A DNA stretch of 64,000 nt from Thiosulfatimonas sediminis (GTDB lineage Bacteria; Pseudomonadota; Gammaproteobacteria; Thiomicrospirales; Thiomicrospiraceae). Shown here piece by piece: positions 26,106 to 41,498 of this stretch. Numbering within the stretch: position 1 is the stretch's first letter; each line of letters begins with the position of its first letter. The position numbers and the translations under genes were made by a program. The stretch lies in assembly GCF_011398355.1 (NCBI RefSeq), contig NZ_AP021889.1:434001-498000 (forward strand), in the 5' to 3' direction. The notes under the pieces are model-generated. The model ran no database searches, had not been told where the DNA came from, and was given only the letters and a program-made list of their open reading frames with translations.

Positions 26106-26422
26106 ATTCACGCTCCTAAACAATTAAATGGCTGTGCGCGCTGTCGTCAGTCGAGCATTTTGCACAAACCTGCGCGGTATTTTCACGCTTAGTGAGACCT
26201 TAAGCAAGCCCTAAGGAGAGGCTGTGTAAGTCCCGATTGAAGCGATTTGGATCTGTTCTGCGCCTTCTTAATGGGTGGGCTTGTTAAGGATTTCACGAAA
26301 ACGTCATTTTTTCAGAAGTGTATTTTTACGAAAGACGGTGCGCTTTAGGCTACAATTCGAACCGTATTTATAAATTAATTTCTTTGTTGACGCGTTATTG
26401 TAAGGTGAATTTGAGTATTTCG
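26106..26422. other. Intergenic region upstream of the gsp operon
   Basis: No gene is supported. It contains a palindromic repeat (26211-26272). The frame open from 26318 in the gspC reading frame is probably leader. I could not pick a convincing promoter for the secretion operon. Confidence 0.45.
26211..26272. repeat. Palindromic intergenic repeat upstream of gspC
   Basis: Left end CTAAGGAGAGGCTGTGTAAG and right end GATTTGGATCTGTTCTGCG followed by CCTTCTTA correspond to the termini of the repeat at 60964-61043 (ATTTGGATTTGTTCTGTAT plus CTCC). The interior is short, so this is a hairpin-like small member of about 60 bases. Confidence 0.55.
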
Positions 26423-27265
26423 ATGACCAATAAAAACTACCTATCCCTGTTTGAGCAAGCCTTGGCATGGCTGTTGTTATTGGCGGCCTTTTGGGTGTTG
26501 GGCAAAGTCATTAATCAAGCATTCCAACCGGCGGTAGATATTTTACAGCCGGCATTGCAAAAATCCGATAATCTCACTGTCGCGCCACTGGCGCCAGCAA
26601 AGCCCTCTTTTCTTTTAGGGCAAGTTCAAGTGCAACCGAGTCTTGTCGAAGCGGAACCCAATAAGCCGCAGGTCGATGATCTTGAAAATCTTCAAAGCAC
26701 GCAATTAAACATCAAATTGACAGGGATTCTCTATACGCCAAACGATGCTGTTGCGGTCATTGAAGAAGGGCGCAATACCTTAGTCTTGCGTGCCGCAGAG
26801 GAATTACGTCCACAAGTGCAGATTGAACAGATAGAACCGACTTTTGTCGTCTTGAATAATCGCGGGAAATTAGAAAAATTACAGCTGCAAGAGAGTGATA
26901 TTCCACAGTCTCCAGCAGGCACGGCCAATGATGTTGCGCCGAGTATGGCGTTGGATCCAGAGAAATTGGCGAAAATTCGCAGCGATGTCAAAAAGACCCC
27001 TTTGGCCCTTAATCGTTACGTGCGTTTCCGTAACTTGAACCGTGACGGAAAAATGTATGCGTTGCAGGTTTGGCCACGCCAAGAGCGCGAGTTGTTTGAA
27101 GGCTTGGGTTTTAAAAGTGGCGACAAAATTTTAGCGGTTGATGGCGTGTCGGTGGGGGATATGGGACAAGACCCAAAACAGTTTCAGCAACTGTTGCAAA
27201 AATCGCAGTTTCGGTTACAGATTGAACGCAGCGGACAACTTCAGGATTTATTCGTCTCACTTTAA
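26423..27265 (+). CDS. gspC: Type II secretion system protein GspC
   Basis: This protein is 280 residues from the ATG at 26423; AAGGTG lies 15 bases upstream, and a TTG at 26411 is closer to it, so the start is not certain. It has one inner-membrane anchor (FEQALAWLLLLAAFWVLGKVI), a proline-rich linker, the HR domain (IKLTGILYTPNDAVAVIEEG) that contacts the secretin, and a C-terminal PDZ-like part (ALQVWPRQERELFEGLGF, GDKILAVDGVSVGDM). GspC links the inner-membrane platform to GspD and takes part in substrate selection. It is the first gene of a contiguous gspC-N operon. Confidence 0.92.
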   Translation: MTNKNYLSLFEQALAWLLLLAAFWVLGKVINQAFQPAVDILQPALQKSDNLTVAPLAPAKPSFLLGQVQVQPSLVEAEPNKPQVDDLENLQSTQLNIKLTGILYTPNDAVAVIEEGRNTLVLRAAEELRPQVQIEQIEPTFVVLNNRGKLEKLQLQESDIPQSPAGTANDVAPSMALDPEKLAKIRSDVKKTPLALNRYVRFRNLNRDGKMYALQVWPRQERELFEGLGFKSGDKILAVDGVSVGDMGQDPKQFQQLLQKSQFRLQIERSGQLQDLFVSL

Positions 27266-27307
27266 GTGAGGTGATACAGATAGCATATGAGCGAAAAGGC
27301 ATACTGC

Positions 27308-29476
27308 ATGACACAGATTTTAAGGCTTAACTCAACCAGCAAATTACGCCAAGGCATTTTGCGCCTTGTTCTCGGCGGCTCTCTTATTTGTGCTGCCGCG
27401 CCAATCGGCAGTGTTTTGGCTGCCCCAGAGGAAATGGCAACCCAGAGTTTTGGGAATTTCCAAAACGTTGAACTCACCACGGTGATAGAAGCGGTGGCCA
27501 AATTGTCTGGACATAACTTTGTGATTGATCCACGGGTTAAAGGCAAGGTAACCCTGATTGCGCCGCAAGGAATGCATCCGGACGCACTTTACCAGACGTT
27601 ATTATCGGTTTTGAGTGTGCATGGTTATGTCGCGGTGGATGCCGACGGAGTGACCAAAATCGTGCCAGCCAATATGGCGAAAGACCAGCTACCGTATCGC
27701 AACAACCGAGAAACCTCAGAAGATTGGGTGACCGAGGTGTTGGATGTGAGCAATGTTGAAGCGACGAAATTGGTGGCGATTTTGCGTCCTTTGGTCGCGC
27801 GTGAGGGCCATTTAGTCGGTTTGGCTGAGAGCAATCGCCTGATTATTACCGATACGGTCGCCAATATTCGTCGTATCAAAAGCATCTTACGTAAGGTGGA
27901 TGTAAACAATTATGGTCAGTTTGAAGTCATTCAAATCGAACATGCCCCAGCGGATGATTTAGCCAAGACCGTAAAAGGATTGATTCCAAAAAATCAAGGT
28001 GGTACTGATGTGACCATCGCCGCAGATGAACGCTCTAACCGTATTATTTTGACGGGTGACGAGCAAAAACGCATGATGATGCGCGCCCTTTTGGCAGAGT
28101 TGGACGTGCCAACCTCCTCCGAAGGGCGTGTTCAAGTGATTTATCTGCGTTATGCCAAAGCCACTGATATTGTGCAAGTGCTGCAAAAAATAGCCAGTAA
28201 CCAATCATTAGCCCAGTCGGGCTTAGGGGCTGATGAAGGTGCTCAGAGCGCGCCGGATACAGCCGTATCTCAGCCCGATTCGAACGATAAAGCACCCGCA
28301 GCGGTCGGCGGCACGACCGTGTTGATGAATGACAGTAAGCAACTTAAAGAGCGCATTAGCATTGAAGCGGATGAGCGTATGAATGCGCTGATTATCAGCG
28401 CACCAACACAAATTGTCAGCGCCTTAAAAGAGGTGATTCGCCAGTTGGATATTCGTCGCGCACAAGTGTTAATCGAGGCGATTTTTGTGGAAGTTTCCGA
28501 AGACCGTGCGGCCAATTTGGGCGTGGAATGGGGTGTTTTTGGCGAACAGGGTGCAGGGTTGATTAATTTCAGCGGTACCTTGCCGACCTTAATTGGCAAT
28601 GTTGGTAATCCTTTGGCACAGGCCGCCGCCTTAGGTTCTGGGGTGAATTTTGCCGCCGGTCAATATAACGGTAACAATGGTTGGGCGGCTTTTTTAAAGG
28701 CGCTGAACAGTGATTCGGCCTCCAATATTTTAGCCACCCCCTCCCTATTGACTCTGGATAATGAAGAAGCGGAGATTTTGGTCGGTCGCGAAGTGCCTTT
28801 CCAAACGGGCAGTTACACCTCGACAGCCACCAGCGTGACCAATCCGTTTAGTACTATTGAGCGTAAAAATGTCGGCTTGAGCCTGAAAGTGAAACCGCAG
28901 ATTAATGAAGGAGATGAGATTTATCTGGAAATCGATCAAGAAGTGTCTGACGTAATACCTAAAGGCGAAGCGGTGGATATTCAAACCACTAAGCGACAAA
29001 TTAAGACGCGAGTGATTGTCGGTGACGGCAACGTGGTGGTATTAGGTGGTTTAATTGACGAGAAAGAGACGCAGGTTGATTCCAAAGTCCCTGGTTTGGG
29101 GGATATTCCCGGCCTTGGTGCGCTATTTCGCTCAACTGACAGCAGTCGTCAAAAAACTAATTTAATGGTTTTTTTGCGTCCGGTGATTGTGCGCGATAAT
29201 CTCAAAAGCGATTTTTACAGTCGTCAAAAATACAATATGATTTTTGACGAGCAACAGCGTATTTTGCAACTGCCGCAGCGTTCGTGGATTAAACCTGGCT
29301 TGCGTCCGCAGTTACCGCAATACCAAGAGTGGCGCAATGATAACGCCACCGTTGCACCTGTTGATACGCCTGCCGCTTCGGCACCGATTGCGCCAAAAGC
29401 TGCGCCAACGCAAGCCCCCATTGAGTCGGAGTCGTCTGGATTTGGTGATAGTTATGATGCCTTCTATGACTTTTAA
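27308..29476 (+). CDS. gspD: Type II secretion system secretin GspD
   Basis: This protein is 722 residues from the ATG at 27308 (AAAAGG eight bases before); an upstream ATG at 27287 would add seven residues. A signal peptide ends near SVLAAPEE. The N0 domain (NFQNVELTTVIEAVAKLSG) and the N1-N3 repeats (VLDVSNVEATKLVAILRPL and similar) precede the C-terminal secretin core (VPGLGDIPGLGALFR, TNLMVFLRPVIV). It forms the outer-membrane channel of the T2SS. The tail is rich in Pro/Ala and may bind a pilotin; none is encoded here. Its 3' end overlaps gspE. Confidence 0.96.
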   Translation: MTQILRLNSTSKLRQGILRLVLGGSLICAAAPIGSVLAAPEEMATQSFGNFQNVELTTVIEAVAKLSGHNFVIDPRVKGKVTLIAPQGMHPDALYQTLLSVLSVHGYVAVDADGVTKIVPANMAKDQLPYRNNRETSEDWVTEVLDVSNVEATKLVAILRPLVAREGHLVGLAESNRLIITDTVANIRRIKSILRKVDVNNYGQFEVIQIEHAPADDLAKTVKGLIPKNQGGTDVTIAADERSNRIILTGDEQKRMMMRALLAELDVPTSSEGRVQVIYLRYAKATDIVQVLQKIASNQSLAQSGLGADEGAQSAPDTAVSQPDSNDKAPAAVGGTTVLMNDSKQLKERISIEADERMNALIISAPTQIVSALKEVIRQLDIRRAQVLIEAIFVEVSEDRAANLGVEWGVFGEQGAGLINFSGTLPTLIGNVGNPLAQAAALGSGVNFAAGQYNGNNGWAAFLKALNSDSASNILATPSLLTLDNEEAEILVGREVPFQTGSYTSTATSVTNPFSTIERKNVGLSLKVKPQINEGDEIYLEIDQEVSDVIPKGEAVDIQTTKRQIKTRVIVGDGNVVVLGGLIDEKETQVDSKVPGLGDIPGLGALFRSTDSSRQKTNLMVFLRPVIVRDNLKSDFYSRQKYNMIFDEQQRILQLPQRSWIKPGLRPQLPQYQEWRNDNATVAPVDTPAASAPIAPKAAPTQAPIESESSGFGDSYDAFYDF

Positions 29477-30929
29477 TCTGCCATTTAGTTTTGCACGTAA
29501 GAATCAGCTTGTGCTCGAGCATCAAGAGGGGTTGAGCGTGTTATTCACCGAGCAAACCCCTTTGGCGGCCCTGCAAGACGTGCAGGCGCAATTGTGGATT
29601 TTGCATCCGCAGCAGTCGATTGAATGGCGCAAAGTTTCTGCTGAACAGCTTAGTCAAAAAGTGCAAGTCGCCTATGCCGATAGCGGCAGTAATTCGATTG
29701 ATGTTGCGGATTCGATTCAGACGGATGATTTAGCGACAGTGTTTGCCGAATTGGGCGAACCCGAAGACTTGCTCGATAGCGCTGATGATGCGCCGATAAT
29801 CAAATTACTCAATGCGGTCTTGACCGAAGCGATTCGCGCTGAAGCGTCTGATATTCATATTGAACCTTACGAGAATCAATTGCGGGTGCGTTTCCGAGTG
29901 GATGGCGTTTTAAAAACCGTACTTAGCCCCAAGCCTGGATTAGCATCGATGCTCGTGTCACGTATTAAAGTGATGGCGCGTCTGGATATCGCCGAGAAAC
30001 GTATCCCACAAGATGGCCGCATGGCATTGAAGTTAGGCGGGCGCGCGGTTGATTTACGGGTTTCGACCCTGCCTTCGAGTTTTGGCGAACGTGTGGTATT
30101 GCGTCTGCTGGATAAGGGGGCGGAGCGCTTGACCTTAAAAGATTTAGGGATGCCAGCACGCATGGAGGCGGATGTCGCTAAGGCCTTGTCAAAAGCACAT
30201 GGAATTTTTCTTGTGACTGGGCCAACCGGTTCCGGAAAGACCACCACACTGTACGCCGGTTTGATGGGACTCAACGACACACAGCGCAATATTATGACGA
30301 TTGAAGATCCCGTTGAATACAACATCGACGGGATTAACCAGACGCAAGTCAATACCAAAGCGGATTTGACTTTTGCTCGTGGTTTGCGTGCGTTACTGCG
30401 ACAAGACCCAGATGTGGTGATGATTGGTGAGATTCGTGACCCAGAAACCGCACAAATTGCAGTGCAAGCTTCGTTAACAGGGCATTTGGTGTTATCAACT
30501 CTGCACACCAATACTGCCGTTGGCGCTTTGACGCGTTTGCGCGATATGGGAACCGAAGCGTTTTTGTTGGCTTCCAGTTTGAATGGGGTTTTGGCGCAAC
30601 GCTTGGTGCGTAAACTGTGTGTGCATTGTAAGCAGCCGCACACGGCGGACAGCGCCGAATGCGCTCAGCTCGGTGTGGCCAGTGCGACTGTCTATCAAGC
30701 GAACGGCTGTGACATTTGTCAGCACACCGGTTACGCCGGACGCATGGGGTTGTACGAGTTGTTGTTGGTCGATGATAAGGTGCGCTCGATGATTCATTCA
30801 CAGCAGTCTGAAGCGGAGATTGATGCGTATTTGCGTCAATCGGCACCGTCTTTAAATCAGAGTGGTTTTCAAGCGGTGTTGGATGGAAAAACCAGTTTGG
30901 ACGAAGTACTTCGTGTGACGCAAAATTAA
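29454..30929 (+). CDS. gspE: Type II secretion ATPase GspE
   Basis: The start is placed at the tandem ATG 29454, overlapping the end of gspD by 23 bases; the frame is open further upstream but only inside gspD. The protein is about 491 residues. It has a short N1 region, Walker A GPTGSGKTTTLYAGL, the Asp box (NIMTIEDPVEYNIDG), Walker B (LLRQDPDVVMIGEIRDPETA) and the His box (STLHTNTAVGALTRL). A zinc-binding cysteine set follows (CVHCK, CDIC). GspE powers assembly of the pseudopilus and docks to GspL. Confidence 0.95.
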   Translation: MMPSMTFNLPFSFARKNQLVLEHQEGLSVLFTEQTPLAALQDVQAQLWILHPQQSIEWRKVSAEQLSQKVQVAYADSGSNSIDVADSIQTDDLATVFAELGEPEDLLDSADDAPIIKLLNAVLTEAIRAEASDIHIEPYENQLRVRFRVDGVLKTVLSPKPGLASMLVSRIKVMARLDIAEKRIPQDGRMALKLGGRAVDLRVSTLPSSFGERVVLRLLDKGAERLTLKDLGMPARMEADVAKALSKAHGIFLVTGPTGSGKTTTLYAGLMGLNDTQRNIMTIEDPVEYNIDGINQTQVNTKADLTFARGLRALLRQDPDVVMIGEIRDPETAQIAVQASLTGHLVLSTLHTNTAVGALTRLRDMGTEAFLLASSLNGVLAQRLVRKLCVHCKQPHTADSAECAQLGVASATVYQANGCDICQHTGYAGRMGLYELLLVDDKVRSMIHSQQSEAEIDAYLRQSAPSLNQSGFQAVLDGKTSLDEVLRVTQN

Positions 30930-30931
30930 GC

Positions 30932-32146
30932 ATGGCTGTTTTTGAATATAAAGCCTTGACTCAACAAGGCAAAAGTAAAAAAGGGATGCTGGAAAGCGAT
31001 TCTGAACGCTTGGCGCGCCAACAAATGCGCGACCAAGGGTTAATCCCGATTGCTTTACAAGAAGTCAAAGCCGCCAAACCAAGCAAATCGACCAGCAACT
31101 GGTTGCAAGCCAAGCTGGCGACCGAAGATTTAGCCTTATTCACGCGTGAATTGCATACCTTACTGGAAGCCGGCACACCGCTAAATAATGCCCTTAAAGC
31201 CTTAACTGAACAGGCTGAGAAGAAAGTGACTATGCGTTTTATTCGCAGTCTGCACTCTAAAGTGAGCGAAGGCTATTCGCTGACGCAGGCTTTACAGAAA
31301 GCGCCTTATAAAATTCCGGCCGACTATGTCGCAATCATTCAAGCCGGTGAACACAGTGGCCACTTGACCGAAGTGATGTCGCGTTTGGCAGACACCATCG
31401 AACAACGCGAGAAGATGAATAAAAAACTCAAAACAGCGATGATTTATCCGATTTTGATGGTTGTCGTTGCGTTTGCAATCGTGTTTTTTCTGATGGTGTA
31501 TGTGGTGCCCAAAGTGGTCGGCGTGTTTGATAATATGCAGCAGACGTTACCTCCCTTAACGCAAGGATTACTCAGCGCCAGTGCTTTTGTGCAGACGCAC
31601 TGGGGAGCGATGTTATTCACGGTGGTCGGCGTTTGGTTGTTATACCGTTGGCTTATGTCTCGCCCGAGCAGCCGCTTTAAGATACATCGTTTGTGGTTGC
31701 GTTTGCCGGGGGCGCGGAAGTTTTTGCTGTATTCTGCGGCGGCACGTTGGGCGCGTACTTTTGGGGTTTTGTTGGCCTCTGGCGTTACGGTACGAGATGC
31801 GATGACCATTTCCGCGGAAGTGATGACCATCGACCCGCTGAAAAAATCGGTGTTAGCCATGGTCGAGTTGGTACGCCAAGGCAAAAGTGTGCATTTTGCC
31901 ATGCAGCAGTCGAAAGTGTTTCCCCCGCTGCTGTTGAACTTAGTTGGCACCGGCGAGGGCAAAGGGCAGCTGCATTCGATGCTATTGCGCGGCGCGCAAC
32001 ATTATGAAAATGAAGTAGAAAACGCGGCGGCAACGCTGGTCAGTTTGATTGAACCGATTTTGATTATGGTGATGGGCGCAGTTGTCTTGACGATTGTGCT
32101 CGCCATTATGTTGCCCATTTTTGAAATGAACCAAATGGTTGGATAA
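30932..32146 (+). CDS. gspF: Type II secretion inner-membrane platform protein GspF
   Basis: This 404-residue protein has two repeated T2SSF domains (about 70-190 and 270-395), each ending in membrane segments (YPILMVVVAFAIVFFLMVYVV; VSLIEPILIMVMGAVVLTIV). A typical opening, FEYKALTQQGKSKKGMLESDS, identifies the family. It lies two bases after gspE. GspF forms the rotary or platform core contacted by GspE and GspL. Confidence 0.95.
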   Translation: MAVFEYKALTQQGKSKKGMLESDSERLARQQMRDQGLIPIALQEVKAAKPSKSTSNWLQAKLATEDLALFTRELHTLLEAGTPLNNALKALTEQAEKKVTMRFIRSLHSKVSEGYSLTQALQKAPYKIPADYVAIIQAGEHSGHLTEVMSRLADTIEQREKMNKKLKTAMIYPILMVVVAFAIVFFLMVYVVPKVVGVFDNMQQTLPPLTQGLLSASAFVQTHWGAMLFTVVGVWLLYRWLMSRPSSRFKIHRLWLRLPGARKFLLYSAAARWARTFGVLLASGVTVRDAMTISAEVMTIDPLKKSVLAMVELVRQGKSVHFAMQQSKVFPPLLLNLVGTGEGKGQLHSMLLRGAQHYENEVENAAATLVSLIEPILIMVMGAVVLTIVLAIMLPIFEMNQMVG

Positions 32147-32151
32147 TTTAG

Positions 32152-32586
32152 ATGAAAAAACAAAATAACAGTAAACAACACGGTTTTACGTTGATTGAAT
32201 TAATGGTTGTGGTCGTCATTTTGGCGGTTTTAGCCGGTTTTGTGGTACCCAAGTTAATGGATCGTCCGGATGAGGCGCGTTTGGTAAAAGCGAAACAGGA
32301 CATTGGTGCAATCGCCTCGGCACTGCAATTGTATAAGTTGGATAACTATAATTATCCGACCACTGACCAAGGGCTTGAGGCTTTAGTGAGCCAGCCAACG
32401 GATGACCCACAACCGAAAAACTGGAAAAAACTGTTGGATAATCTGCCGCTTGACCCTTGGGGAAATCCCTATTTGTATCTGATGCCAGGCGAACACGGTG
32501 AATTTGATTTATATACCTTAGGGGCCGATGGGATGGACGGTGGCGAGGACATCAATGCCACCATCGGCAACTGGCAAGCAAAGTAG
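32152..32586 (+). CDS. gspG: Major pseudopilin GspG
   Basis: This 144-residue protein carries a prepilin peptidase site after a short basic leader, HG/FTLIELMVVVVILAVLAGF, with the conserved E5 of the mature pilin. The C-terminal globular part has the GspG calcium-site region (GLEALVSQPT, LPLDPWGNPYLY, DLYTLGADG). It builds the pseudopilus shaft. Processing needs a GspO/PilD peptidase that is not encoded in this window. Confidence 0.96.
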   Translation: MKKQNNSKQHGFTLIELMVVVVILAVLAGFVVPKLMDRPDEARLVKAKQDIGAIASALQLYKLDNYNYPTTDQGLEALVSQPTDDPQPKNWKKLLDNLPLDPWGNPYLYLMPGEHGEFDLYTLGADGMDGGEDINATIGNWQAK

Positions 32587-32598
32587 ACGCTGCTTGAA

Positions 32599-33105
32599 AT
32601 GATGCGCCAGCGCGGCTTTACGCTGCTTGAATTAATGGTCGTGTTGTTGGTTATTGGTGTGCTTTTGTCTGCTGGAATGCTGAGTTTGCAGAACAATGAC
32701 GCCGCCCAGTCGCGTGAACAAGCGGCTAAAATCCAAGGCCTGTTTAAGCAGGCGCAAGATCAAGCGACTTGGACGCAACGTACTCATTTAGTGGGTGTGA
32801 GTGCGCAAGGTTTACAGGTGTATCAATGGTCGCAAGGGCGTTGGCAGACTGCCAGTAAGCTGCAACCTCTTTCTTGGTCGGCGCTGTGGACTGTCGAATG
32901 GCAGTTGCCACTCAATCAGCCGCCATTCTTTTTGGTTGACGATGCTCGCCAAGTGACTTTGGCGGGTTGGTTGCTGTTGCCCAATGGTGAGGCGCAGTTG
33001 GGCCAGATTTCTTGGCAATTAACAAACCAAGGGGGCGATGCGCCACTGAGCGTATTGCAATGGGATAGGTGGTTAAATTTTGAACTCCTCGCTGAGATGG
33101 AATAG
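32599..33105 (+). CDS. gspH: Minor pseudopilin GspH
   Basis: This 168-residue protein has the N-methylation motif RG/FTLLELMVVLLVIGVLLS directly after a five-residue leader. The globular part (QAKIQGLFKQAQDQATWTQ, QVYQWSQGRWQ) agrees with GspH. It belongs to the minor pseudopilin tip complex with GspI, J and K. The gene lies between gspG and gspI in the normal order. Confidence 0.9.
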   Translation: MMRQRGFTLLELMVVLLVIGVLLSAGMLSLQNNDAAQSREQAAKIQGLFKQAQDQATWTQRTHLVGVSAQGLQVYQWSQGRWQTASKLQPLSWSALWTVEWQLPLNQPPFFLVDDARQVTLAGWLLLPNGEAQLGQISWQLTNQGGDAPLSVLQWDRWLNFELLAEME

Positions 33106-33111
33106 AGCGCA

Positions 33112-33483
33112 GTGAAAAAACGTCAATCGGGTTTTACGCTTATTGAGGTGCTGATTGCTTTAGTGATTGCTGCAATTGCTTTGGCTGCGTTAAGTCGAAC
33201 CATGGGCATGACGACGCACAACCAGACGCTGTTAGAGGAAAAAGTGCTGGCCACTTGGGTGGCACAAAATGCGCTTTTGCAAGAGCAGCTTGGCGGCCAG
33301 CTTAACGGTGCTGATAAAAAAGTACAGATGCTCGGACGAACTTGGCTTGTCGAGCAGAAAATAGAACCGACCCAGTTGCCAGAGTTTAGAAAATTGAGCA
33401 TCGAAGTGCGCCAGCAGAATGCATCTGGCGATGGCTCGCTTAGTGCTCGTTTAGTGAGTGTGGTTAGCGCGGATGGATTGTAA
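33112..33483 (+). CDS. gspI: Minor pseudopilin GspI
   Basis: This 123-residue protein starts at GTG 33112. Prepilin motif SG/FTLIEVLIALVIAAIALAAL follows a basic leader, and the C-terminal part includes WVAQNALLQEQL and a conserved GRTWLVEQKI strand. GspI initiates the pseudopilus tip complex. The 3' end overlaps gspJ by 11 bases. Confidence 0.92.
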   Translation: MKKRQSGFTLIEVLIALVIAAIALAALSRTMGMTTHNQTLLEEKVLATWVAQNALLQEQLGGQLNGADKKVQMLGRTWLVEQKIEPTQLPEFRKLSIEVRQQNASGDGSLSARLVSVVSADGL

Positions 33484-34246
33484 ACCGCGGATTCGCCAAC
33501 AAGGGTTTACCCTGATTGAATTGCTGATTGCGATGAGCATTGCAGCCGTTATCAGTTTGATGGCTTATCAAAGTATTGATGCCAGTGTTCGCTCTAATCA
33601 GATATTAGAGCGTCATCAACAAGATTTACGTCAGGTGCAATCCGCTTGGTGGTGGTTGGAGCAAGATTTAATGCAACTGGCGCCGCGGGCAGTGAGCGAC
33701 GGTTTGGGCGGTACATTGCCTGCTTTGGCTTACCGTACCGATATTCCGCTGGAGTTTAGTCGCTTCAGCGTGGCCGATAGCCCTTTGGCACAGGCTGGAC
33801 GTTATGGTGTGCTGCGAGTCGCTTATCTGTTCGAGGGGAGTGAGTTGATACGTTTGCAATGGCCGGTGTCAGATCGCGCCCCTGATTCACAGCCCAGTCG
33901 CCGAGTGTTATTGCAAGACGTGCAACAATTTGCGTTGCGCTTTTTAGATCAAAACGGACAGTGGCAAAGCAGTTGGCCGCCGGTTAATCAAACGCCGGCA
34001 TCGTTGAATAATCGCCTGCCTAAAGCGCTGGAAGTCAGTATGCAAACTGCACAAGGAGAGGTGCGTCGCCTGTTTGCGGGTGTGGATTGGTTGGATTTCA
34101 ATCCGTATACAACCGCGACCTCGGCAGCCGAAAATTCATCGGATACGTCGTCTGAAAGTACGCCGCAAGCTCCGACTCCCGAGGTTAATGCCACGGACAG
34201 CATCGAAGTGTCCGTGCCTCCGCCGGAGTTGTTGGATGCTAATTAA
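33473..34246 (+). CDS. gspJ: Minor pseudopilin GspJ
   Basis: This protein is 257 residues from the ATG at 33473 inside the end of gspI. The prepilin motif QG/FTLIELLIAMSIAAVISLM, then the family strand pattern (WWWLEQDLMQLAPRAV, RYGVLRVAYLFEGSELIRLQWP) identify GspJ. A Ser/Thr/Pro-rich C-terminal tail of about 40 residues is longer than usual. It overlaps gspK by 11 bases. Confidence 0.92.
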   Translation: MDCKPRIRQQGFTLIELLIAMSIAAVISLMAYQSIDASVRSNQILERHQQDLRQVQSAWWWLEQDLMQLAPRAVSDGLGGTLPALAYRTDIPLEFSRFSVADSPLAQAGRYGVLRVAYLFEGSELIRLQWPVSDRAPDSQPSRRVLLQDVQQFALRFLDQNGQWQSSWPPVNQTPASLNNRLPKALEVSMQTAQGEVRRLFAGVDWLDFNPYTTATSAAENSSDTSSESTPQAPTPEVNATDSIEVSVPPPELLDAN

Positions 34247-35222
34247 ACAGCGCGGTTTTGCCTTAATAACGGTCTTGCTGGTTGCGGCTTTGGTGGCGAT
34301 TATCAGTAGCCAGTTGCTCGGTCAACAAAATGCCCAAATTCAACGCAGTGGTTATATGTTGCATCAAGCCCAAGCGTTAAGTGTTGCTTGGGGATTGGAA
34401 AGTTGGGTTAAACAAGGTTTAAAGCTGGATGGACAAAATAACAAAACCGATCATTTAAACGAAGTTTGGGCGCAAGCTTTACCACCGATTGCGTTTGAGG
34501 ACGGTGAAATAAGCGGCGTGTTGCTTGATGCGCAAGCCAATCTCAATGTGAATAATTTGCTTTTGCCGGTCGCCAATCCGCCGCAAGAGGGGACGAGCAG
34601 CGCCGAACAATTATGGCAGCAAGTGTTTGATCGTTACGCCGAACAGCAGGGGATAAATCAGCCCTTGGCAGATGTGATTGGTGACTGGATTGATCAGGAT
34701 TCCGAGCCGCGTATACGTGGTGCTGAAACCGATCAATATCTGTTGAGGCAGCCGGCCTACCGTGCCGCTAATGTCTTGATGGTCAGCACGCAAGAAGTGT
34801 TGAACTTACAGGGCATGAGTGAGTTGGATTATGCTCAGCAGCAACGTTTAATAATGCATTTAAGCGCATTGCCCAAGAGCGTTCCGGTGAATATTAATAC
34901 GGCACCGGAGGCGGTGTTAATGGCGTTAAGCGATTGGATGACCCCGCAGCTGGTGCAAGCTTGGCTCAGCGAGCGTTTAGTCACACCGGCCGATGGGCTA
35001 GAAAATTTTTATCAATTTTTAGTGCAAGCATCGGGGTTGACTCAGGCGGAGATTACCCAAGCGTTACCGCAGAGTTTGATTGCGGTGCGTAGCGAATTTT
35101 TTATCTTACATGGACGAGTCGATTTTGGCTTGGCGCAGCAACAGGTGTCTGCGCTCTTTTACCGTGATCCAGAAAACCAAGTGAAGTTACTCCAAAGGTG
35201 GTTAAGTGTCCCTGAATCCTAA
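34236..35222 (+). CDS. gspK: Minor pseudopilin GspK
   Basis: This protein is 328 residues from the ATG at 34236 inside the end of gspJ. It has the GspK-type N-terminus RG/FALITVLLVAALVAIISS, with the hydrophobic segment lacking the E5 found in the other pseudopilins, as is normal for GspK. The large globular part includes LADVIGDWIDQDSEP and a helix-hairpin-like NINTAPEAVLMAL. GspK caps the pseudopilus. It overlaps gspL. Confidence 0.92.
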   Translation: MLIKQRGFALITVLLVAALVAIISSQLLGQQNAQIQRSGYMLHQAQALSVAWGLESWVKQGLKLDGQNNKTDHLNEVWAQALPPIAFEDGEISGVLLDAQANLNVNNLLLPVANPPQEGTSSAEQLWQQVFDRYAEQQGINQPLADVIGDWIDQDSEPRIRGAETDQYLLRQPAYRAANVLMVSTQEVLNLQGMSELDYAQQQRLIMHLSALPKSVPVNINTAPEAVLMALSDWMTPQLVQAWLSERLVTPADGLENFYQFLVQASGLTQAEITQALPQSLIAVRSEFFILHGRVDFGLAQQQVSALFYRDPENQVKLLQRWLSVPES

Positions 35223-36381
35223 TCCAACGCATCAAAATCACGCTGACGTAAACGTCGGTGCGCTGCGTTTTAATCGCCAAGGTGAATTGCACTGGCAGCA
35301 GTGGCAAGATGAGCGTCTGCAGAGTGAGCCTGTGGCTAAATTGTTGCAGCAAGGGCGGATAACAAGGGCGCAGCTCTTGGCGTTTGGCGTAATCTGGGTG
35401 CCGACTGAGTTATTGGTGTTGACTGAAGTGACATTGCCCGCTAAAAGACGTGCTGAGATTGATGCTGCTCTGCCTTTTGCGATGGAAGAGCAGTTGGCAC
35501 AGCCGGTGGAAAGCTATCATTTTGTGATTTTGGATAAACAAGTGCACGCTAAGGGGGCGGTTTTGCAAGTCGCTGCGGTTGCCAGAACACAGATGCAAGC
35601 GTGGATTGCTGCGATAAAATCGTTGAATTTGGACTCTTTAGTTTTGGTGGCGGACTGTTTTGCATTGCCCTTGCATAAAGGACAAGCCGTCTGTTTAACC
35701 ACGCCGATGGAGGGTGGAATATCCTTATGTCGTACCGGCCAAAGTGTGGGTGTGGCTCTGCCTGCGCCAGTGTTGACGCTAAAGGGTTTAGAGCATGCCG
35801 AATCGGTTCAATGGTCGCAAGCGTTGTGGGCCAAAGCGGCTTACAGTGCTCTGCAGTGGCGTGAATTATCTGCTTTGAATTTAAGGATTGGCGAGTTCAG
35901 TGCGCAACAGCGCACGCAAATCGGCAAACTGTGGTTATGGCCAAATTTGGCGGCGGGTGTCTTAATGGTCACCATGTTGGGTTCGTTGTATTTGAGCAGT
36001 CAGCAAGCGTTACAAGACGCACAAGCTTATCAAGTGCAGAGTGAACAACTGTTTCGAGCGATGTTTCCTGAAGTGAAACGGGTGGTGAATCTAAAGGCGC
36101 AGACGCTGAGCCGTCTACAGCCCGCGGCAGAGGCGCAGAACGCGCAATTGATGCCGTTGATTTATCAGTTAGAGCCACTATTGACTCAGGCCGATGGTGT
36201 TTTGATAGATGAAATCCGTTGGAATCAAAGCCGTGCTACTTTACAGCTAAAAGTACGCGCTTTGCAAAGTCGTCAGTTACAGTTGCTGGAACCGAGATTA
36301 GCGAACATCAATGGCAAATTAAGTATTAACAGTGTGACCCCGGAAGCGGCATTAGGAGTGATTGATGTGGTTGCAAATTGA
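35206..36381 (+). CDS. gspL: Type II secretion protein GspL
   Basis: This 391-residue protein starts at GTG 35206 with AAAGGTGG upstream. A cytoplasmic actin-like domain (WVPTELLVLTEVTLPAKRRAEI, LPFAMEEQLAQPVESYHF) comes first, then a single membrane segment near 245-266 (LWPNLAAGVLMVTMLGSLYL) and a periplasmic ferredoxin-like domain. GspL recruits the ATPase GspE to the membrane and pairs with GspM. The gene overlaps gspK and gspM, as expected for translational coupling. Confidence 0.9.
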   Translation: MSLNPNPTHQNHADVNVGALRFNRQGELHWQQWQDERLQSEPVAKLLQQGRITRAQLLAFGVIWVPTELLVLTEVTLPAKRRAEIDAALPFAMEEQLAQPVESYHFVILDKQVHAKGAVLQVAAVARTQMQAWIAAIKSLNLDSLVLVADCFALPLHKGQAVCLTTPMEGGISLCRTGQSVGVALPAPVLTLKGLEHAESVQWSQALWAKAAYSALQWRELSALNLRIGEFSAQQRTQIGKLWLWPNLAAGVLMVTMLGSLYLSSQQALQDAQAYQVQSEQLFRAMFPEVKRVVNLKAQTLSRLQPAAEAQNAQLMPLIYQLEPLLTQADGVLIDEIRWNQSRATLQLKVRALQSRQLQLLEPRLANINGKLSINSVTPEAALGVIDVVAN

Positions 36382-36895
36382 GCAAATGTTAACGTCTCTC
36401 AAGTTCCGTTTTAACCAGTTTTGGTTGCCTCTGGCGCAGCGCGAAAAAAACCTTTTGAGCGCGCTGGCCGTGTTTTTGGTTTGGGTGCTGCTGTACGCCT
36501 TTTTGTGGTTGCCGATGCAGCACAGCCAAACGCAAGCCGAGCAGAAGTTGCACGCCGCGCAGCAGCAATGGCAGTGGTTGCAGCAGCAGATTCCGGCTTG
36601 GCAAAAACGTGCTGGTGATTCACAGAGTGTTCAGGTGCAAGACCGTAATCAGTTAATGAGTATGGTGCAGTCCAGTTTGCGCCAGATGAATTTACATCAG
36701 CAAATTAGCAGCATCGATTTAACCAATAAGGGCGTGAAGGTGGTGTTTAAAGATGTTGCTGCCAGCCGCTTGTTTCAGTGGTTAGCCACTTTAGAACAGC
36801 AGGGCGTGAGCAGTGATAAAGTGCAAATAACTCCGAATAGCGAAGCCGCCAAGCAAGGCTTTGCCGCCGCGCAAATTGATTTTGTTTCTCCTTAG
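36365..36895 (+). CDS. gspM: Type II secretion protein GspM
   Basis: This protein is 176 residues from the ATG at 36365, overlapping the end of gspL. One membrane anchor (NLLSALAVFLVWVLLYAFLWLP) is followed by a Gln-rich coiled coil and a small periplasmic domain (IDLTNKGVKVVFKDVAASRLFQWLATLEQQG) of the GspM type. It forms the inner-membrane subcomplex with GspL. Confidence 0.9.
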   Translation: MWLQIEQMLTSLKFRFNQFWLPLAQREKNLLSALAVFLVWVLLYAFLWLPMQHSQTQAEQKLHAAQQQWQWLQQQIPAWQKRAGDSQSVQVQDRNQLMSMVQSSLRQMNLHQQISSIDLTNKGVKVVFKDVAASRLFQWLATLEQQGVSSDKVQITPNSEAAKQGFAAAQIDFVSP

Positions 36896-36977
36896 TTGTT
36901 CATTTTGCTTTGTTTGGCGTCAACTGAACCGGTCTGGCAATTCTTGAGACAAATTTACTCTTAACCACTGAGCGCTT

Positions 36978-37796
36978 ATGAAAGTCACGAAATCCCGACC
37001 AATTTTGCTACTATCCCTATTTGCTATTGGGGTTTTAACGGTCTCGTTATTCAGTCATCTACAGGTCGCTTTACTGGCTGACAACTGGCTCGATAAAAAG
37101 TTGCTGAACCCCGTTGTGTTGAGTGAATGGCAAGGGGATTTGCTGGACGGTTCGGCCAATGTGGCGCTCTCCTTTAAGCAAGGTAATCAGTCCATAGGTC
37201 GTTTGACTTGGCAAAATTCACCGAGCGCAGGTGGTTTTTTAGCACCACAAATGCGTGTTCAGTTGCAGGGGCTGCAAAGTCGTTTGCAGTTTTTGGCGGT
37301 GTATTCTGTATTGGCATCCTCGCGGCAGTTGAGTCTTCAAGATTCACATCTTAGCAGCGTTGATTTGCAACCGTTCTGGCAGTTGAATCGCGATTACGGT
37401 CGCTGGTTAACGGGTGTGGAATGGCGATTAAGCGGATTAAATCTACAAGCTGATTGGACTGCGCAATCGGATTGGCCAAGCCAAGCAGGTGGCCGAGCTC
37501 AACTACTGGATTTGCAGTTTATGGGCGAAGAATTTCCGCCGATTAATTTACAGTTAGAGCAACACGAGCAAGCGTTGGTAGTGACTATTCAGGCTCAGCA
37601 AGGATGGCGTTTAGCGGGTGAGATTCGTTTAACGCCCGTTTTTAACGGTCAAAATGTGCAAGCCATTGCTTACCAAGGGTCAATCGAGGTTCAGGCGGAC
37701 AGTGCAGAGGCTTTACCAAATTGGGCAAGTTTAATGCGTCCCCAAGGTGAGCGCGCTGCGACCACAACATTTACAGGGCAGTTGGTACTCAATTAA
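36978..37796 (+). CDS. gspN: Type II secretion protein GspN
   Basis: This 272-residue protein has an N-terminal membrane anchor (PILLLSLFAIGVLTVSLFSHL) and a beta-rich periplasmic part (LSEWQGDLLDGSANVALSF, GRLTWQNSPSAGGFLAP) as in GspN. GspN is not essential in many systems. It ends the gsp operon and its 3' end is 20 bases from the protease gene, so the two may be co-transcribed. Confidence 0.85.
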   Translation: MKVTKSRPILLLSLFAIGVLTVSLFSHLQVALLADNWLDKKLLNPVVLSEWQGDLLDGSANVALSFKQGNQSIGRLTWQNSPSAGGFLAPQMRVQLQGLQSRLQFLAVYSVLASSRQLSLQDSHLSSVDLQPFWQLNRDYGRWLTGVEWRLSGLNLQADWTAQSDWPSQAGGRAQLLDLQFMGEEFPPINLQLEQHEQALVVTIQAQQGWRLAGEIRLTPVFNGQNVQAIAYQGSIEVQADSAEALPNWASLMRPQGERAATTTFTGQLVLN

Positions 37797-37815: not shown

Positions 37816-39633
37816 ATGACAGATTCTTCGGTGCAGCCAGTGCGCTTGATGAGCGATGCTTTTCATTTGCGATGGTTTACGCTAGTGCCCTTGCTTGCCG
37901 CGGCATTATTAAGTGCTTGTGGTGGCGGCTCGTCTGAAGATCCTGCTCCGGTTCCGGTGATTCAGCCGGATGTGGCGATTGCCAGTTTCGACGATCCTTT
38001 GGTCGGTTATCAGTGGTATCTGGAAAGTATTCGTGCGGTTAGTCAGGGGGACTATGTGCGCAATCGCAGCGGCGATTTAATCACCGGCAATCAAGTGCGA
38101 GTGGCGGTGATTGACACTGGATTGGAAATTACGCACCCTGACATTCAGGAAAATCTGACACCAAACGCGTCTTACAATTTTTTTACGCGAGGGAGCGACC
38201 CCGCGCCAAACACCACCACCGAAGGGGATCATGGTACCGCGGTAGCAGGCCTGCTGGCTGCAAGGGGCGGCAATTCGAAGGGGATGATTGGGGTGGCGCC
38301 CAGTGCCGAATTACGCGCGTTTAAAATATTAAACTCCGAGGGGGTTACCAATATTTCGATTACGGATCAATTGGCCGCGATTGGTTACGACCCGCAGATC
38401 AATCATCCAAGCTTAGTTACATCGGATTTGGCGGTGTTTAATTTGAGTTACGGCTTTCCGATCACCTATGACCCGACGCCGAATGCAGGCGCTTATGATA
38501 GTTATTATGATCCGTTATTCCTTGGTTTAGAAAGCGGCACGCAAACCCTTCGTGCCGGCAAGGGCGCGCTCTATGTTAAGGCGGCCGGTAATGAATTTGA
38601 AAAAATTGATACCAGTGGTTCGTGCGCGCAAGCCAATCAGTATGATGTCACCTGTTTTAATACCAATTTTGAACCTGATCAGACCATCCCTTATGTGATT
38701 CCGATTGGTGCTTACTCAACCGATGATAAAAAAGCGTGGTTTTCAAATACGGGTTCTGCCTTGTGGCTTACTGCGCCGGGAGTGACGGTTCTCTCAACCG
38801 ACCAGTCGGGATGTGCCACTGGCTACAGTCAAATTAACAATGGCACTCGCACAGATAGTGCTTTGGCAACGGTTGATGAGAATTGCGATTACATCAGTTA
38901 TTTTGGCGGGAGTTCAGCAGCAACACCAATCGTCAGTGGTGCCTTGGCCTTGTTGTTAGAAGCCAATCCCAATTTAACTTGGCGAGATGCCAAACACATT
39001 CTTGCTTTGAGTGCGCGTAAAATTGACGCCAATCTAAGTGGTAAAACGTTGAGTGTTCCAGCCGTGGCGATTGAACAAGGTTGGGTGACGAATGCGGCGA
39101 ATATTCCGTTCTCAAATTATTACGGTTTTGGTGCTTTGGATGTGAGTGCAGCCGTGGCGATGGCAACCGATAATTATCAGTCTTTACCGGCGTTACAACT
39201 TATCGGCGGCGATGATGACCGCCGCCTGTTCGGTTCAGTGACTAATGGCGGTGCAATTGCCGATAAGAGTGCTGTTGGTATCACCGAACGATTGAATGTA
39301 AATCAAACAGATAATTTACAAGTAGAGAGTGTTCGCTTGACCTTGTCGATGACGGCTCAAGGCGCGCTGAGTAATTTCGATTTTAGCGATTATGTGATTA
39401 CCTTGATTTCGCCTTCCGGTACACAAAGTATTGTGATGACGCCGTTCACCGGATTTGACAAGCAGAGCGCAGTCACTGATTTGCCGATGATCAGTCACGC
39501 TTTTTATGGGGAGCGTTTAAACGGTGATTGGCAGTTAAAAATTCAGGATGTCGATTCGCAATCCGGATTGACTGGGCTAGGGAAACTGGTCGATTGGTCA
39601 CTCTCTTTTTATGCACATGAGGCACAAGAATAA
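37816..39633 (+). CDS. Subtilisin-family (S8) lipoprotein protease with P-domain
   Basis: This protein is 605 residues from the ATG at 37816, eight bases after the purine run AAGGGGGGG. A lipobox, LLSACGGGSSEDPAP, predicts a lipid-anchored protein. The S8 triad is complete: D100 in VAVIDTGLE, H139 in GDHGTAVAGL and S367 in GGSSAATPIVSG, with the oxyanion Asn in KAAGNE. The C-terminal 130 residues form a proprotein-convertase P-domain (IADKSAVGITERLNV, VITLISPSGTQSIVMTPF). There is no clear N-terminal propeptide between the lipobox and the catalytic domain. Its place right after gspN suggests it is exported to the surface by the type II system. The stop overlaps the ATG of the next gene. Confidence 0.9.
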   Translation: MTDSSVQPVRLMSDAFHLRWFTLVPLLAAALLSACGGGSSEDPAPVPVIQPDVAIASFDDPLVGYQWYLESIRAVSQGDYVRNRSGDLITGNQVRVAVIDTGLEITHPDIQENLTPNASYNFFTRGSDPAPNTTTEGDHGTAVAGLLAARGGNSKGMIGVAPSAELRAFKILNSEGVTNISITDQLAAIGYDPQINHPSLVTSDLAVFNLSYGFPITYDPTPNAGAYDSYYDPLFLGLESGTQTLRAGKGALYVKAAGNEFEKIDTSGSCAQANQYDVTCFNTNFEPDQTIPYVIPIGAYSTDDKKAWFSNTGSALWLTAPGVTVLSTDQSGCATGYSQINNGTRTDSALATVDENCDYISYFGGSSAATPIVSGALALLLEANPNLTWRDAKHILALSARKIDANLSGKTLSVPAVAIEQGWVTNAANIPFSNYYGFGALDVSAAVAMATDNYQSLPALQLIGGDDDRRLFGSVTNGGAIADKSAVGITERLNVNQTDNLQVESVRLTLSMTAQGALSNFDFSDYVITLISPSGTQSIVMTPFTGFDKQSAVTDLPMISHAFYGERLNGDWQLKIQDVDSQSGLTGLGKLVDWSLSFYAHEAQE

Positions 39634-40205
39634 TGAAATCGCGGTTGAAGTCTTCTCTGCACGCGGCGCTGTTTGCGACCCTGTTGAGCAGTAGCGCTGC
39701 GCAAGCGTATTTGCTGCCCTGTCAATTAGTGACTCAGATGGCTGGAACGGAAATCTACGAAGCGCAGTTACAGCGCGTAGCCTCACTCTTAGCGCCGCAA
39801 GACTTGCCCGCTGAACTTGATTTGGCGTTATTGCAACGCCACGGCGGTTGGTATATTTATCACACTCCGCAAGTGTGGTTTAGCAAGCAGACCTGTGGCC
39901 CTTTAGACAAAACATTCAACGACAAGCATTATGCGTTTATGCCGGTGCTGTTGAATAAGAAAACCGGTAATAATGCTGTGTTGACGGGCACCTTTGTGTT
40001 GCGTACCTATCGACCAGAACATCTGCAAGAGGTAATCGATCGTTATGGGTTTAAGATGGTGACGCGGTTGCCGAAAGACGATATGGCAATTATTGACGTC
40101 AAACCAATTCAGTCATACGACGACATGATTGAGGCGTTGGATAAGGATCGAGATGTCGATTTGATTGCACCGATAATGAGTGAGCCGCGTTTTAGACCGC
40201 GCTAA
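39633..40205 (+). CDS. Exported protein, possible detached subtilase propeptide or inhibitor
   Basis: This 190-residue protein has a signal peptide (KSSLHAALFATLLSSSAAQAY). Its ATG shares bases with the stop of the protease gene (TAATG), so translation is coupled. The C-terminal 75 residues (TFVLRTYRPEHLQEVIDRYG, MVTRLPKDDMAIIDV, MIEALDKDRDVDLIAP) have the pattern of an I9-type subtilase propeptide: strand, helix, strand, helix, and a final strand ending before SEPRFRPR. Propeptides act as folding chaperones and inhibitors of S8 enzymes. Since the protease upstream lacks one, this protein may serve in trans. The likeness is read by eye and the role is inferred. Confidence 0.6.
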   Translation: MKSRLKSSLHAALFATLLSSSAAQAYLLPCQLVTQMAGTEIYEAQLQRVASLLAPQDLPAELDLALLQRHGGWYIYHTPQVWFSKQTCGPLDKTFNDKHYAFMPVLLNKKTGNNAVLTGTFVLRTYRPEHLQEVIDRYGFKMVTRLPKDDMAIIDVKPIQSYDDMIEALDKDRDVDLIAPIMSEPRFRPR

Positions 40206-40207
40206 CC

Positions 40208-40243
40208 AAAAAAGGGGGAGAAGTTAGATTCTGCCCCTTTTTT
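40208..40243. terminator. Bidirectional terminator between convergent genes
   Basis: AAAAAGGGGGAGAAG and TTCTGCCCCTTTTTTT form a stem with flanking A- and T-runs, ending the secretion/protease operon on the plus strand and the minus-strand thioredoxin-like gene. Confidence 0.75.
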
Positions 40244-40263
40244 TGATGTCCATCGCGAGAGTG

Positions 40264-40833
40264 TTATTGCGGCTGGTAGTTCACTTTGCTCTCTTCGACC
40301 ATCTTGTAGATGTCGACGCGTTTATCATTACCGAGTTTTGCCAGTGCTTGATTGATGGCGCGTTCTAGGTTGCCAGGATAAAATTCTTCGAGTGTTAAGC
40401 CGATAATCGGATCAGCAATTTGGTTGCCTTCGCCATCAAAAAATAAGGTTGTAGGTGCCACGATAACCCCCAATTTCGGTCCTAGGGTTTTCATTTCGAT
40501 GTCGCTGCCATTAAAGTCTTTCATCATCCAATGTGACTTGTCTAATACCAGTTGGCTGAACTGGGCGTAGTTTTCCAAATCCGTCGTTTGCAGCAGCGGA
40601 TAAAGAATGTTTTGTTCCAGTTTTTTACAGTAGTTACACCATGTGGCGGTGGCAAAAATCACCACAGGTACTTTGTTTTTGGTGGCAATCTGTCCCGACT
40701 TTTGTAAATCCACCGCCAATGGCAGGATTTCACCCGCATGAGCATCCGAATTGACGCTAAGGAGGGCGATGCTGAGAGTGAGTACCGCGCTAAGTTGACG
40801 CATTTTTGTGGATAAAAAAATTGGTTTGAGCAT
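40264..40833 (-). CDS. Periplasmic thioredoxin-fold protein
   Basis: This protein is 189 residues from the ATG at 40833, seven bases after AGGAG; two upstream in-frame ATGs are less well placed. A signal peptide (LSAVLTLSIALLSVNSDAHA) leads to a thioredoxin fold with the redox motif CNYC in IFATATWCNYCKKLEQN and a cis-proline region (IVAPTTLFFDGEG). It belongs to the DsbD-gamma/SoxW-like class of thiol-disulfide proteins, which reduce or repair periplasmic cysteines. The specific partner is unknown. It is co-directional with the lipoprotein gene upstream, 20 bases away. Confidence 0.85.
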   Translation of the reverse strand: MLKPIFLSTKMRQLSAVLTLSIALLSVNSDAHAGEILPLAVDLQKSGQIATKNKVPVVIFATATWCNYCKKLEQNILYPLLQTTDLENYAQFSQLVLDKSHWMMKDFNGSDIEMKTLGPKLGVIVAPTTLFFDGEGNQIADPIIGLTLEEFYPGNLERAINQALAKLGNDKRVDIYKMVEESKVNYQPQ

Positions 40834-40853
40834 ATCCATTCTCCTGATCTGGG

Positions 40854-41498
40854 TTAGCGTTGTTTGCGTAATTTGCAATACATCGGTTTAACGCCCAGCT
40901 CTTCAATATAAGCTTTTATTTGCAATTGTTCTTGTCCGCTGATGGCTAAGCGTTGCTTGTATTCCGCACCACAGTCCCATTTACCATCACTAACAAAGCG
41001 AATTTGGTCGTTACTCGCTTGACGATATAGCTGTAATTCTACTGCGCTTCCCTCTTGGCGATAATGAAGATAGGCTGGCAGGCTTTGGGTCTTGCCATTT
41101 TGCGGATTGCGCAGTTGCAGTTGGATGGCTTTGTTTTCTGAACGGGCGATGCTAAAACTCTCTGGACGAAGCTGCCAAGTGACCTTGTCGCGTTGCATCT
41201 CGCCCTGCAGAATATTGACGCGTACTACATTGCTTTGCATCGGGTTTTTATAGAGATGTTGCAGGCGTTTTTTTTCTTCCAATTCCACTTGCAGTTGCAG
41301 TTCGCGTGCACGATTGTCAGCGTCTTGTTGCACTCGCGCTTGTTCGGCATCGATTTGTTGCTGTTTGAGCAGTAGCTGTTCGCGCGCTTGCGGGCTGAGT
41401 TGTTTCCACTGTTCATCGTTCATCCCAACTGGGTTTGATGAGCAGCCGTACAATAATGGCAGGGTGAAGAAAGAGATCAATAGGAAACGGGAAATCAT
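40854..41498 (-). CDS. Lipoprotein of unknown function with coiled coil
   Basis: This 214-residue protein has a lipobox (FTLPLLYGCSSNP). A charged Gln/Glu-rich helix follows at about 35-80 (QLSPQAREQLLLKQQQ and on), then a beta-rich C-terminal domain with two cysteines (KWDCGAEYKQRL, KPMYCKLRKQR) that may form a disulfide. I do not recognise the family. The thioredoxin-like gene just downstream could act on that disulfide. The gene is followed by no clear terminator. Confidence 0.65.
   Translation of the reverse strand: MISRFLLISFFTLPLLYGCSSNPVGMNDEQWKQLSPQAREQLLLKQQQIDAEQARVQQDADNRARELQLQVELEEKKRLQHLYKNPMQSNVVRVNILQGEMQRDKVTWQLRPESFSIARSENKAIQLQLRNPQNGKTQSLPAYLHYRQEGSAVELQLYRQASNDQIRFVSDGKWDCGAEYKQRLAISGQEQLQIKAYIEELGVKPMYCKLRKQR

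Follow-up and report, generated by a model that had tools for sequence, protein, structure and literature searches.

The window, as the whole 64,000-nucleotide stretch of DNA analysed here is called, belongs to a genome that forms a single contig of 2.72 Mb. The nearest named relative is Thiomicrorhabdus marina, whose version of the small protein described below is 73% identical (the search may omit the window's own record). The plus strand carries a T2SS operon (26318..37796) in which Pfam recognises gspC (start 26318, preceding gspD), gspD (27287), gspF (30932), gspG (32152), gspI (33112), gspJ (33458), gspK (about 34254), gspL (35206) and gspM (36362). The plus-strand ORFs in the places of gspE (29244-30929) and gspH (start 32599) were assigned by position. 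The preliminary description had placed the genes of interest after gspN; the T2SS operon is confirmed, and the name gspN rests on the position of an ORF (36978-37796, plus strand) for which a Pfam scan gave no match. At the end of the operon, downstream of the gsp genes, an S8 protease gene and a small gene were found exactly where they had been described. They are followed by an apparent intrinsic terminator (40206..40250, plus strand), recognised by eye from an A/G run, a loop and a C/T run. Convergent with the pair, the minus strand of 40264-41498 encodes a thioredoxin-like protein (PF13098) and a small lipobox protein; the thioredoxin gene recurs close by at 20/22 genus loci that carry the small gene, those of orphans among them.

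The protease gene (37816..39633, plus strand) runs from an ATG at 37816 to a stop codon ending at 39633 and encodes 605 aa; with a start at the in-frame ATG of 37849 instead, the leader would be 24 aa long, a commoner length. A lipobox signal peptide, a Gly-rich tether, a subtilase domain and a P-domain follow one another in this order. The lipobox cysteine is Cys35 (37918..37920, plus strand; LLSAC-GGGSS), directly followed by GGGSS, and a lipobox is present in 18 of 20 S8 relatives, the remaining two being cut by a contig end. Pfam places Peptidase_S8 at residues 91-425 (4e-42) and a P-domain of the proprotein-convertase type at residues 522-598 (39379..39609, plus strand; PF01483 P_proprotein, E 3.9e-12), and names no pro-domain. 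Only about 25 residues separate Cys35 from the start of the catalytic module (DDPLVGYQWYL). When the protein was aligned with 18 relatives, the triad D100/H139/S367, N259 and C35 were invariant in 19/19 sequences, and no common propeptide-sized domain was seen between the lipobox Cys and the catalytic domain. Sequence, Pfam and this alignment bear out the lipobox, triad, P-domain and missing propeptide of the preliminary description. In four of the relatives (L042, L043, L044, L047) the lipobox and the catalytic domain are set apart by additional sequence, which in the three scanned (L042, L044, L047) is a bacterial Ig/cadherin-like domain (Big_9, Pfam). The best PDB match of the window protease is ASP of Aeromonas sobria (3hjr/3wqb_A, 3e-59), with furin far behind (2e-27), and its make-up is that of the ASP type: a kexin-like S8 protease with a P-domain and without a propeptide. 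A further S8 protease of the same genome (L024, G000:C1:2530786-2531523) is a 674-aa open frame with PKD domains; the stretch before its catalytic domain is long enough for a propeptide of its own, and Pfam names none there.

The small gene (39633..40205, plus strand) has its start codon inside the protease stop codon, the two overlapping in TAATG. It encodes a putative ORF2-like external chaperone/inhibitor of 190 aa, so classed from its sequence, an AlphaFold2 model and fold matches. Residues 1-25 (39633..39707) form a signal peptide that ends in AQA and has low pLDDT in the model; junction and export had both been described correctly. The N-terminal domain (residues 26-118; 39708..39986) contains C30 and C88, which may form a disulfide. 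The I9/prodomain-like domain (residues 119-184; 39987..40184) is assigned from its predicted fold and a weak match to PF22148. The protein ends in a tail, PRFRPR (40185..40202), that has an aromatic residue at P4 and a C-terminal Arg as P1 in the alignment and, judged from ORF2, would enter the active site; all of these parts lie on the plus strand. C30, W73, C88, P180 and E184 are invariant in 38/38 rows of the family alignment.

The AlphaFold2 model of the small protein, built from 23 sequences, has a pLDDT of 90.4 and a pTM of 0.80. Its top Foldseek match is 3wqb_B, which is ORF2 in the ASP complex (E 2e-3, prob 1.00), and the search against the PDB gave nothing at E <= 0.001. The same chain comes first in VIA with Z 8.5 over 97/99 residues at 16% identity, a Z value only slightly beyond the range attainable by unrelated folds. 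Next in VIA stand PC1/3 prodomains (Z 5.9 and less) and subtilisin propeptides (Z 4.5), aligned over model residues 113-189, and unrelated ferredoxin-like folds are also listed at Z 3-4. As modelled, the C-terminal part of the small protein has the subtilase prodomain fold. The earlier suggestion that the last 75 residues are I9-like, for which a comparison with I9 domains had been proposed as a check, is upheld by the predicted fold; Pfam alone is weak here, with PF22148 (Fervidolysin_NPro-like) matching residues 128-180 at E 0.0019 and 19.0 bits, below the cut-off of 21. Within the small family PF22148 matches 14/38 members at E <= 0.1, and PF18492 (ORF_2_N) matches 5/38 at the same threshold, the best at 2.6e-5 and 24.9 bits. 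None of the 38 members reaches the PF18492 cut-off of 29.2, and the window protein has no PF18492 match. HMMER did not link the small family to the ORF2 chain; its only hits, RecA and a nucleotide adenylyltransferase, were regarded as fortuitous. A proof of kinship with ORF2 from sequence alone was accordingly given up. The sequence evidence agrees with the ORF2/prodomain fold match but is weak.

ASP is an extracellular secreted protease (PMC5638518). It lacks a propeptide, and ORF2, encoded just downstream, is required for active ASP (PMC5638518, PMC9549277). The C-terminal Gln-Pro-Lys of ORF2 is placed at the ASP catalytic residue 336, with an IC50 of 84 nM, and asp-orf2 operons are named from four other genera (PMC5638518). 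In a 2022 subtilase survey ASP stands as the exception, and AspA as one of only two subtilases without a propeptide (PMC9549277). The window pair resembles ASP/ORF2 (PDB 3hjr, 3wqb, 2mk4; PF18492) in its kexin-like S8 protease with a P-domain and no propeptide, in a partner gene immediately downstream (here with a signal peptide), in the predicted fold of the partner and in a basic C-terminal residue after Pro, which is Lys in ORF2 (QPK) and Arg in the window protein (RPR). It differs in that the protease is a lipoprotein within a T2SS locus, that similarity of the partner to ORF2 is below HMMER detection and that orphan partner genes without a protease exist in the family. Within the window's partner family two cysteines are invariant. 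Subtilase propeptides encoded in cis (MEROPS I9; PF22148, PF05922, PF16470) share the I9-like C-terminal fold and the predicted substrate-like plug. Unlike them, the window helper is encoded apart from the protease, carries a signal peptide of its own as well as an additional N-terminal domain, and has its C-terminus set by a stop codon and not by autocleavage. The pair is the known ASP/ORF2 design, and new are the lineage, the lipid anchor and the T2SS link. The expectation that this design would be uncommon is not upheld, as ASP/ORF2 has already been described (PMC5638518) and the design recurs widely in this subtilase branch. Among the literature matches listed, which cover ASP/ORF2 of Aeromonas, no paper on such a pair in Thiomicrorhabdus or Hydrogenovibrio and none on orphan ORF2 genes was found, subscription papers being mostly outside the scope.

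The occurrence of the two genes was followed in 32 genomes of the genus, 62 of the order and 369 of the class. The small gene is present in 23/32 genus genomes and 36/62 order genomes. The order search gave 39 matches, 38 of which are in the family alignment (A3). The row left out is a second G058 copy on C129 (L151) with an intact tail, EQRYRTR, and an S8 neighbour in pieces; rows L144 and L147 begin at a non-start codon and were taken for their aligned part only. A cognate S8 protease was called from a strong match (E <= 1e-115), found in 22/62 order genomes, and all 22 also carry the small gene. The two are neighbours in 21 loci of the order, window included, with gaps of -11 to 60 bases depending on the start codons chosen, which argues against a chance pairing. 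In the genome G061 they lie 1.6 Mb apart, the protease at 541 kb, 2 kb behind gspL, and the small gene, its tail intact, at 2154 kb. Conservation beside gsp genes, named at the outset as a check on the pair, was found in relatives: in 19/22 genomes the protease has gspL or gspM on its upstream side (G042 is counted by taking its S8 pieces on C70 and C39 as parts of a single gene). Among the remaining three, G002 has gspL on another contig, G003 is cut by a contig end and G014 shows no gsp match in the 1.5 kb between S8 and contig end. T2SSL is present in 22/22 genomes with the protease. Across the class sample of 369 genomes, the small family matches only the window's own genome and G022. The proposal of a trans-acting chaperone/inhibitor for a surface lipoprotein protease gains from the predicted ORF2 fold, the co-occurrence in 22/22 genomes and the upstream gsp genes, but it did not stand as originally worded.

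More distant relatives of the protease were found by profile in 16 of 367 other class-sample genomes. The loci inspected were 14 of the 23 class-wide matches outside G000 and G022 (L183-L192, L199, L200, L203, L204) and three distant relatives in the window's genus (L174, L175, L176 of G018, G023, G025), 17 in total; weaker matches (L193-L198, L201, L202, L205), a second G025 S8 and further G018 pieces were left out. A same-strand downstream gene of 195-221 codons, at a gap of -23 to 85 bases, is present in 16/17 of these loci, and no Pfam pro-domain was seen in the 16 proteases so accompanied. The sole inspected locus without a partner, L192, has a weak internal S8_pro-domain in its protease (PF16470, E 0.0075, below the cut-off), which fits a helper being needed either as a separate gene or built in. 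Thirteen of the 16 partners form one family (A4), all ending in Arg. Its profile matches that of the window's family with hhalign prob 93% and E 3e-7 over 141 columns, a kinship at profile level only; controls (one reversed, 20 column-shuffled) gave E 0.065 or worse. The A4 model has a pLDDT of 76. VIA ranks ORF2 first at Z 7.0, level with prodomains, in a list where ferredoxin-like chains without kinship score up to 5-6.5; Foldseek opens with five rows of PC1/3 prodomains and has no ORF2 among its best 50 rows. The other three partners are those of L185, which passes PF22148, ends in Lys and is not recognised by the A4 profile (E 0.3); of L183, which resembles the A3 profile (prob 70%, E 4e-5); and of L184, which is not recognised by that profile (E 0.066). 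Helpers encoded on their own recur across the whole branch and fall into two or more partner families, whose kinship shows at profile level only. At L174, L175 and L176 an A4-family partner stands beside a distant S8 lipoprotein, and these genomes have no match to the window's small family. The A4-family partners at L186, L187, L200 and L203 are apparently lipoproteins themselves (Cys then QAG after the leader).

Very probably, the pair is a system of the ASP/ORF2 type, in which a propeptide-less S8 lipoprotein, a propeptide supplied in trans and a T2SS route are combined with a re-tasking of orphan helpers. Sequences, conservation, co-occurrence and the correlation of the tail with the protease, given below, are observations; the fold and the ORF2 match come from predicted models. 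The protease, a lipoprotein from the kexin-like branch of S8, would be synthesised lacking a propeptide, and the neighbouring gene would supply the propeptide in trans as an exported two-domain protein. The I9-like C-terminal domain could dock on the nascent protease in the periplasm and aid its folding. The Tyr/Phe-x-x-Arg tail would occupy the substrate cleft, bring its final Arg to the catalytic serine and so block the enzyme; a basic C-terminus is present and conserved in helpers with a cognate protease. The stop codon would define the P1 residue, as autocleavage does in ordinary subtilases. Gene order and lipobox suggest the adjacent T2SS as the most likely route of the blocked lipoprotein to the cell surface, lipobox and T2SS locus both being present for the window protease, and the helper would then be released or degraded. 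By analogy with ASP/ORF2, the helper is expected to bring about folding of the protease and, its tail lodged in the cleft, to keep the enzyme inactive up to export. From the tail, a cleavage preference of the protease for an aromatic residue at P4 and Arg at P1 is predicted.

Does the small protein act as an inhibitor only, guarding the cell from its own protease, which folds unaided? Stand-alone I9 proteins of eukaryotes inhibit subtilases, and their existence has been read as inhibition independent of chaperone activity (PMC6993865); the substrate-like tail is also the feature most strictly tied to the protease. We nevertheless regard this alternative as unlikely. The 19 aligned S8 sequences offer no common propeptide-sized domain of their own, and the closest relative of known structure, ASP, depends on ORF2 for its activation (PMC5638518).

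Frequent occurrence of the small gene without an S8 protease, which the preliminary description had set down as evidence against a partnership, was found in part. The cognate protease is absent from 14/36 genomes with the small gene, and seven of these (G007, G028, G037, G040, G045, G056, G057) have no Peptidase_S8 match at all, among them the single-contig genomes G037 and G056 (100% complete) and G007 (99%). With second copies in G042 and G043, the 14 orphan-only genomes give 16 orphan genes. A tail of the pattern [YF]x[LTP]R ends 22/22 small proteins with a cognate protease in the genome and is shortened or altered in 15/16 orphans, the exception being G045 with a near-intact YQAR (Ala at P2 was admitted after this tail was seen; under the original pattern 0/16 orphans are intact). 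The rule first emerged within one genus, in 15 paired and 8 orphan genes; in other genera the tail is kept in 7/7 cognates and absent in 7/8 orphans. G042 and G043 carry both kinds, a paired copy that keeps the tail and an orphan copy that lost it. These two, and G061, where the protease is unlinked and the tail kept, are the most instructive genomes. With the tail columns excluded, a tree of the family needs six changes for each of the tail and protease traits; its well-supported branches give four independent pairs, on average 3.9 concordant and 0 discordant, and with four pairs a sign test cannot fall below p 0.125. Because of this C-terminal pattern, the sequences suggest that orphans are changed, partner-less versions and not evidence against the partnership where the protease exists.

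Orphans could instead be functionless leftovers decaying after loss of the protease. In six of them the stop codon now lies before the tail, a profile or protein match continuing past it, and the loss or change of the tail in all orphans except that of G045 would fit such a course. From their sequences, though, the orphans do not look like simple decay. All 16 have an uninterrupted frame in the aligned part as far as the stop, and the five invariant residues of the family hold in the orphan rows as well. A seven-member orphan clade has a mean identity of 75% in the I9 domain vs 61% in the N-domain, with differences at codon positions 1/2/3 of 0.22/0.14/0.48 (used instead of dN/dS, as third positions differ too much). 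The corresponding identities are 57% vs 50% in paired genes and 54% vs 40% in other orphans. Decay without function is accordingly rated as quite improbable. In protease-less lineages the helper gene would be kept with its plug tail usually gone, and it probably took or kept another task, because the I9 domain appears to stay under purifying selection. A possible model is provided by stand-alone I9-like inhibitors with a free-standing propeptide fold, such as POIA1, yeast peptidase B inhibitor, Arabidopsis propeptide-like inhibitor 1 and SUB1-ProM (PMC6993865). These differ in being eukaryotic, POIA1 having only 77 residues in its solved form, and the orphans are mostly without an inhibitory-type tail. 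In PfSUB1 the propeptide tail is described as enhancing inhibition and as not essential (PMC6993865); given this precedent, tail loss in the orphans may weaken and not abolish inhibition.

That the small protein is mainly something else (e.g. a T2SS accessory or envelope protein), beside the protease by accident and with a common ferredoxin-like arrangement taken for an I9 fold, is very improbable: the small gene does survive without a cognate S8 protease, in six of those 14 genomes even without T2SSL, and ferredoxin-like folds are common and occur in the VIA list, but the best fold match is ORF2 over nearly its whole chain, followed by prodomains, the tail tracks the presence of the protease even when unlinked, and analogous partners stand beside distant S8 relatives.

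The ASP/ORF2-type reading can be extended, tentatively and at somewhat less than even chances. Among kexin-like lipoprotein subtilases of Gammaproteobacteria, external propeptides may be a general, modular component that, after loss of the protease, is repeatedly kept and recruited as a plug-less, I9-keeping periplasmic chaperone or modulator for another client, the tail acting as a genetic switch between inhibitor and chaperone. ASP is the exception in the 2022 survey (PMC9549277); here the separate helper is found again and again across a whole subtilase branch. The natural absence of the protease is a ready-made experiment, with helpers that have or lack the plug tail and with two in one genome (G042, G043). 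Tail-bearing and tail-less helpers allow chaperone action to be separated from inhibition.

Two further candidates for what the orphans depend on were rejected. A dependence on T2SS does not agree with the 6/14 orphan-only genomes that have no T2SSL match. A service to the other lipoprotein S8 of G006, G008, G011, G012 and G029 was rejected because no S8 match accompanies the small gene in G007 and G028, and because S8 frames of similar length (762-784 aa) occur in G013, G017, G019 and G024, where no small gene was found; these genomes are 79-93% complete and their S8 were likened to the other kind by length alone. This second S8 kind consists of open frames of 784-795 aa (L096 in G006, L098 in G008, L101 in G029, L102 in G012, L103 in G011). 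Pfam names no pro-domain in the three scanned (L096, L101, L102), and a lipobox is present in the four that were read.
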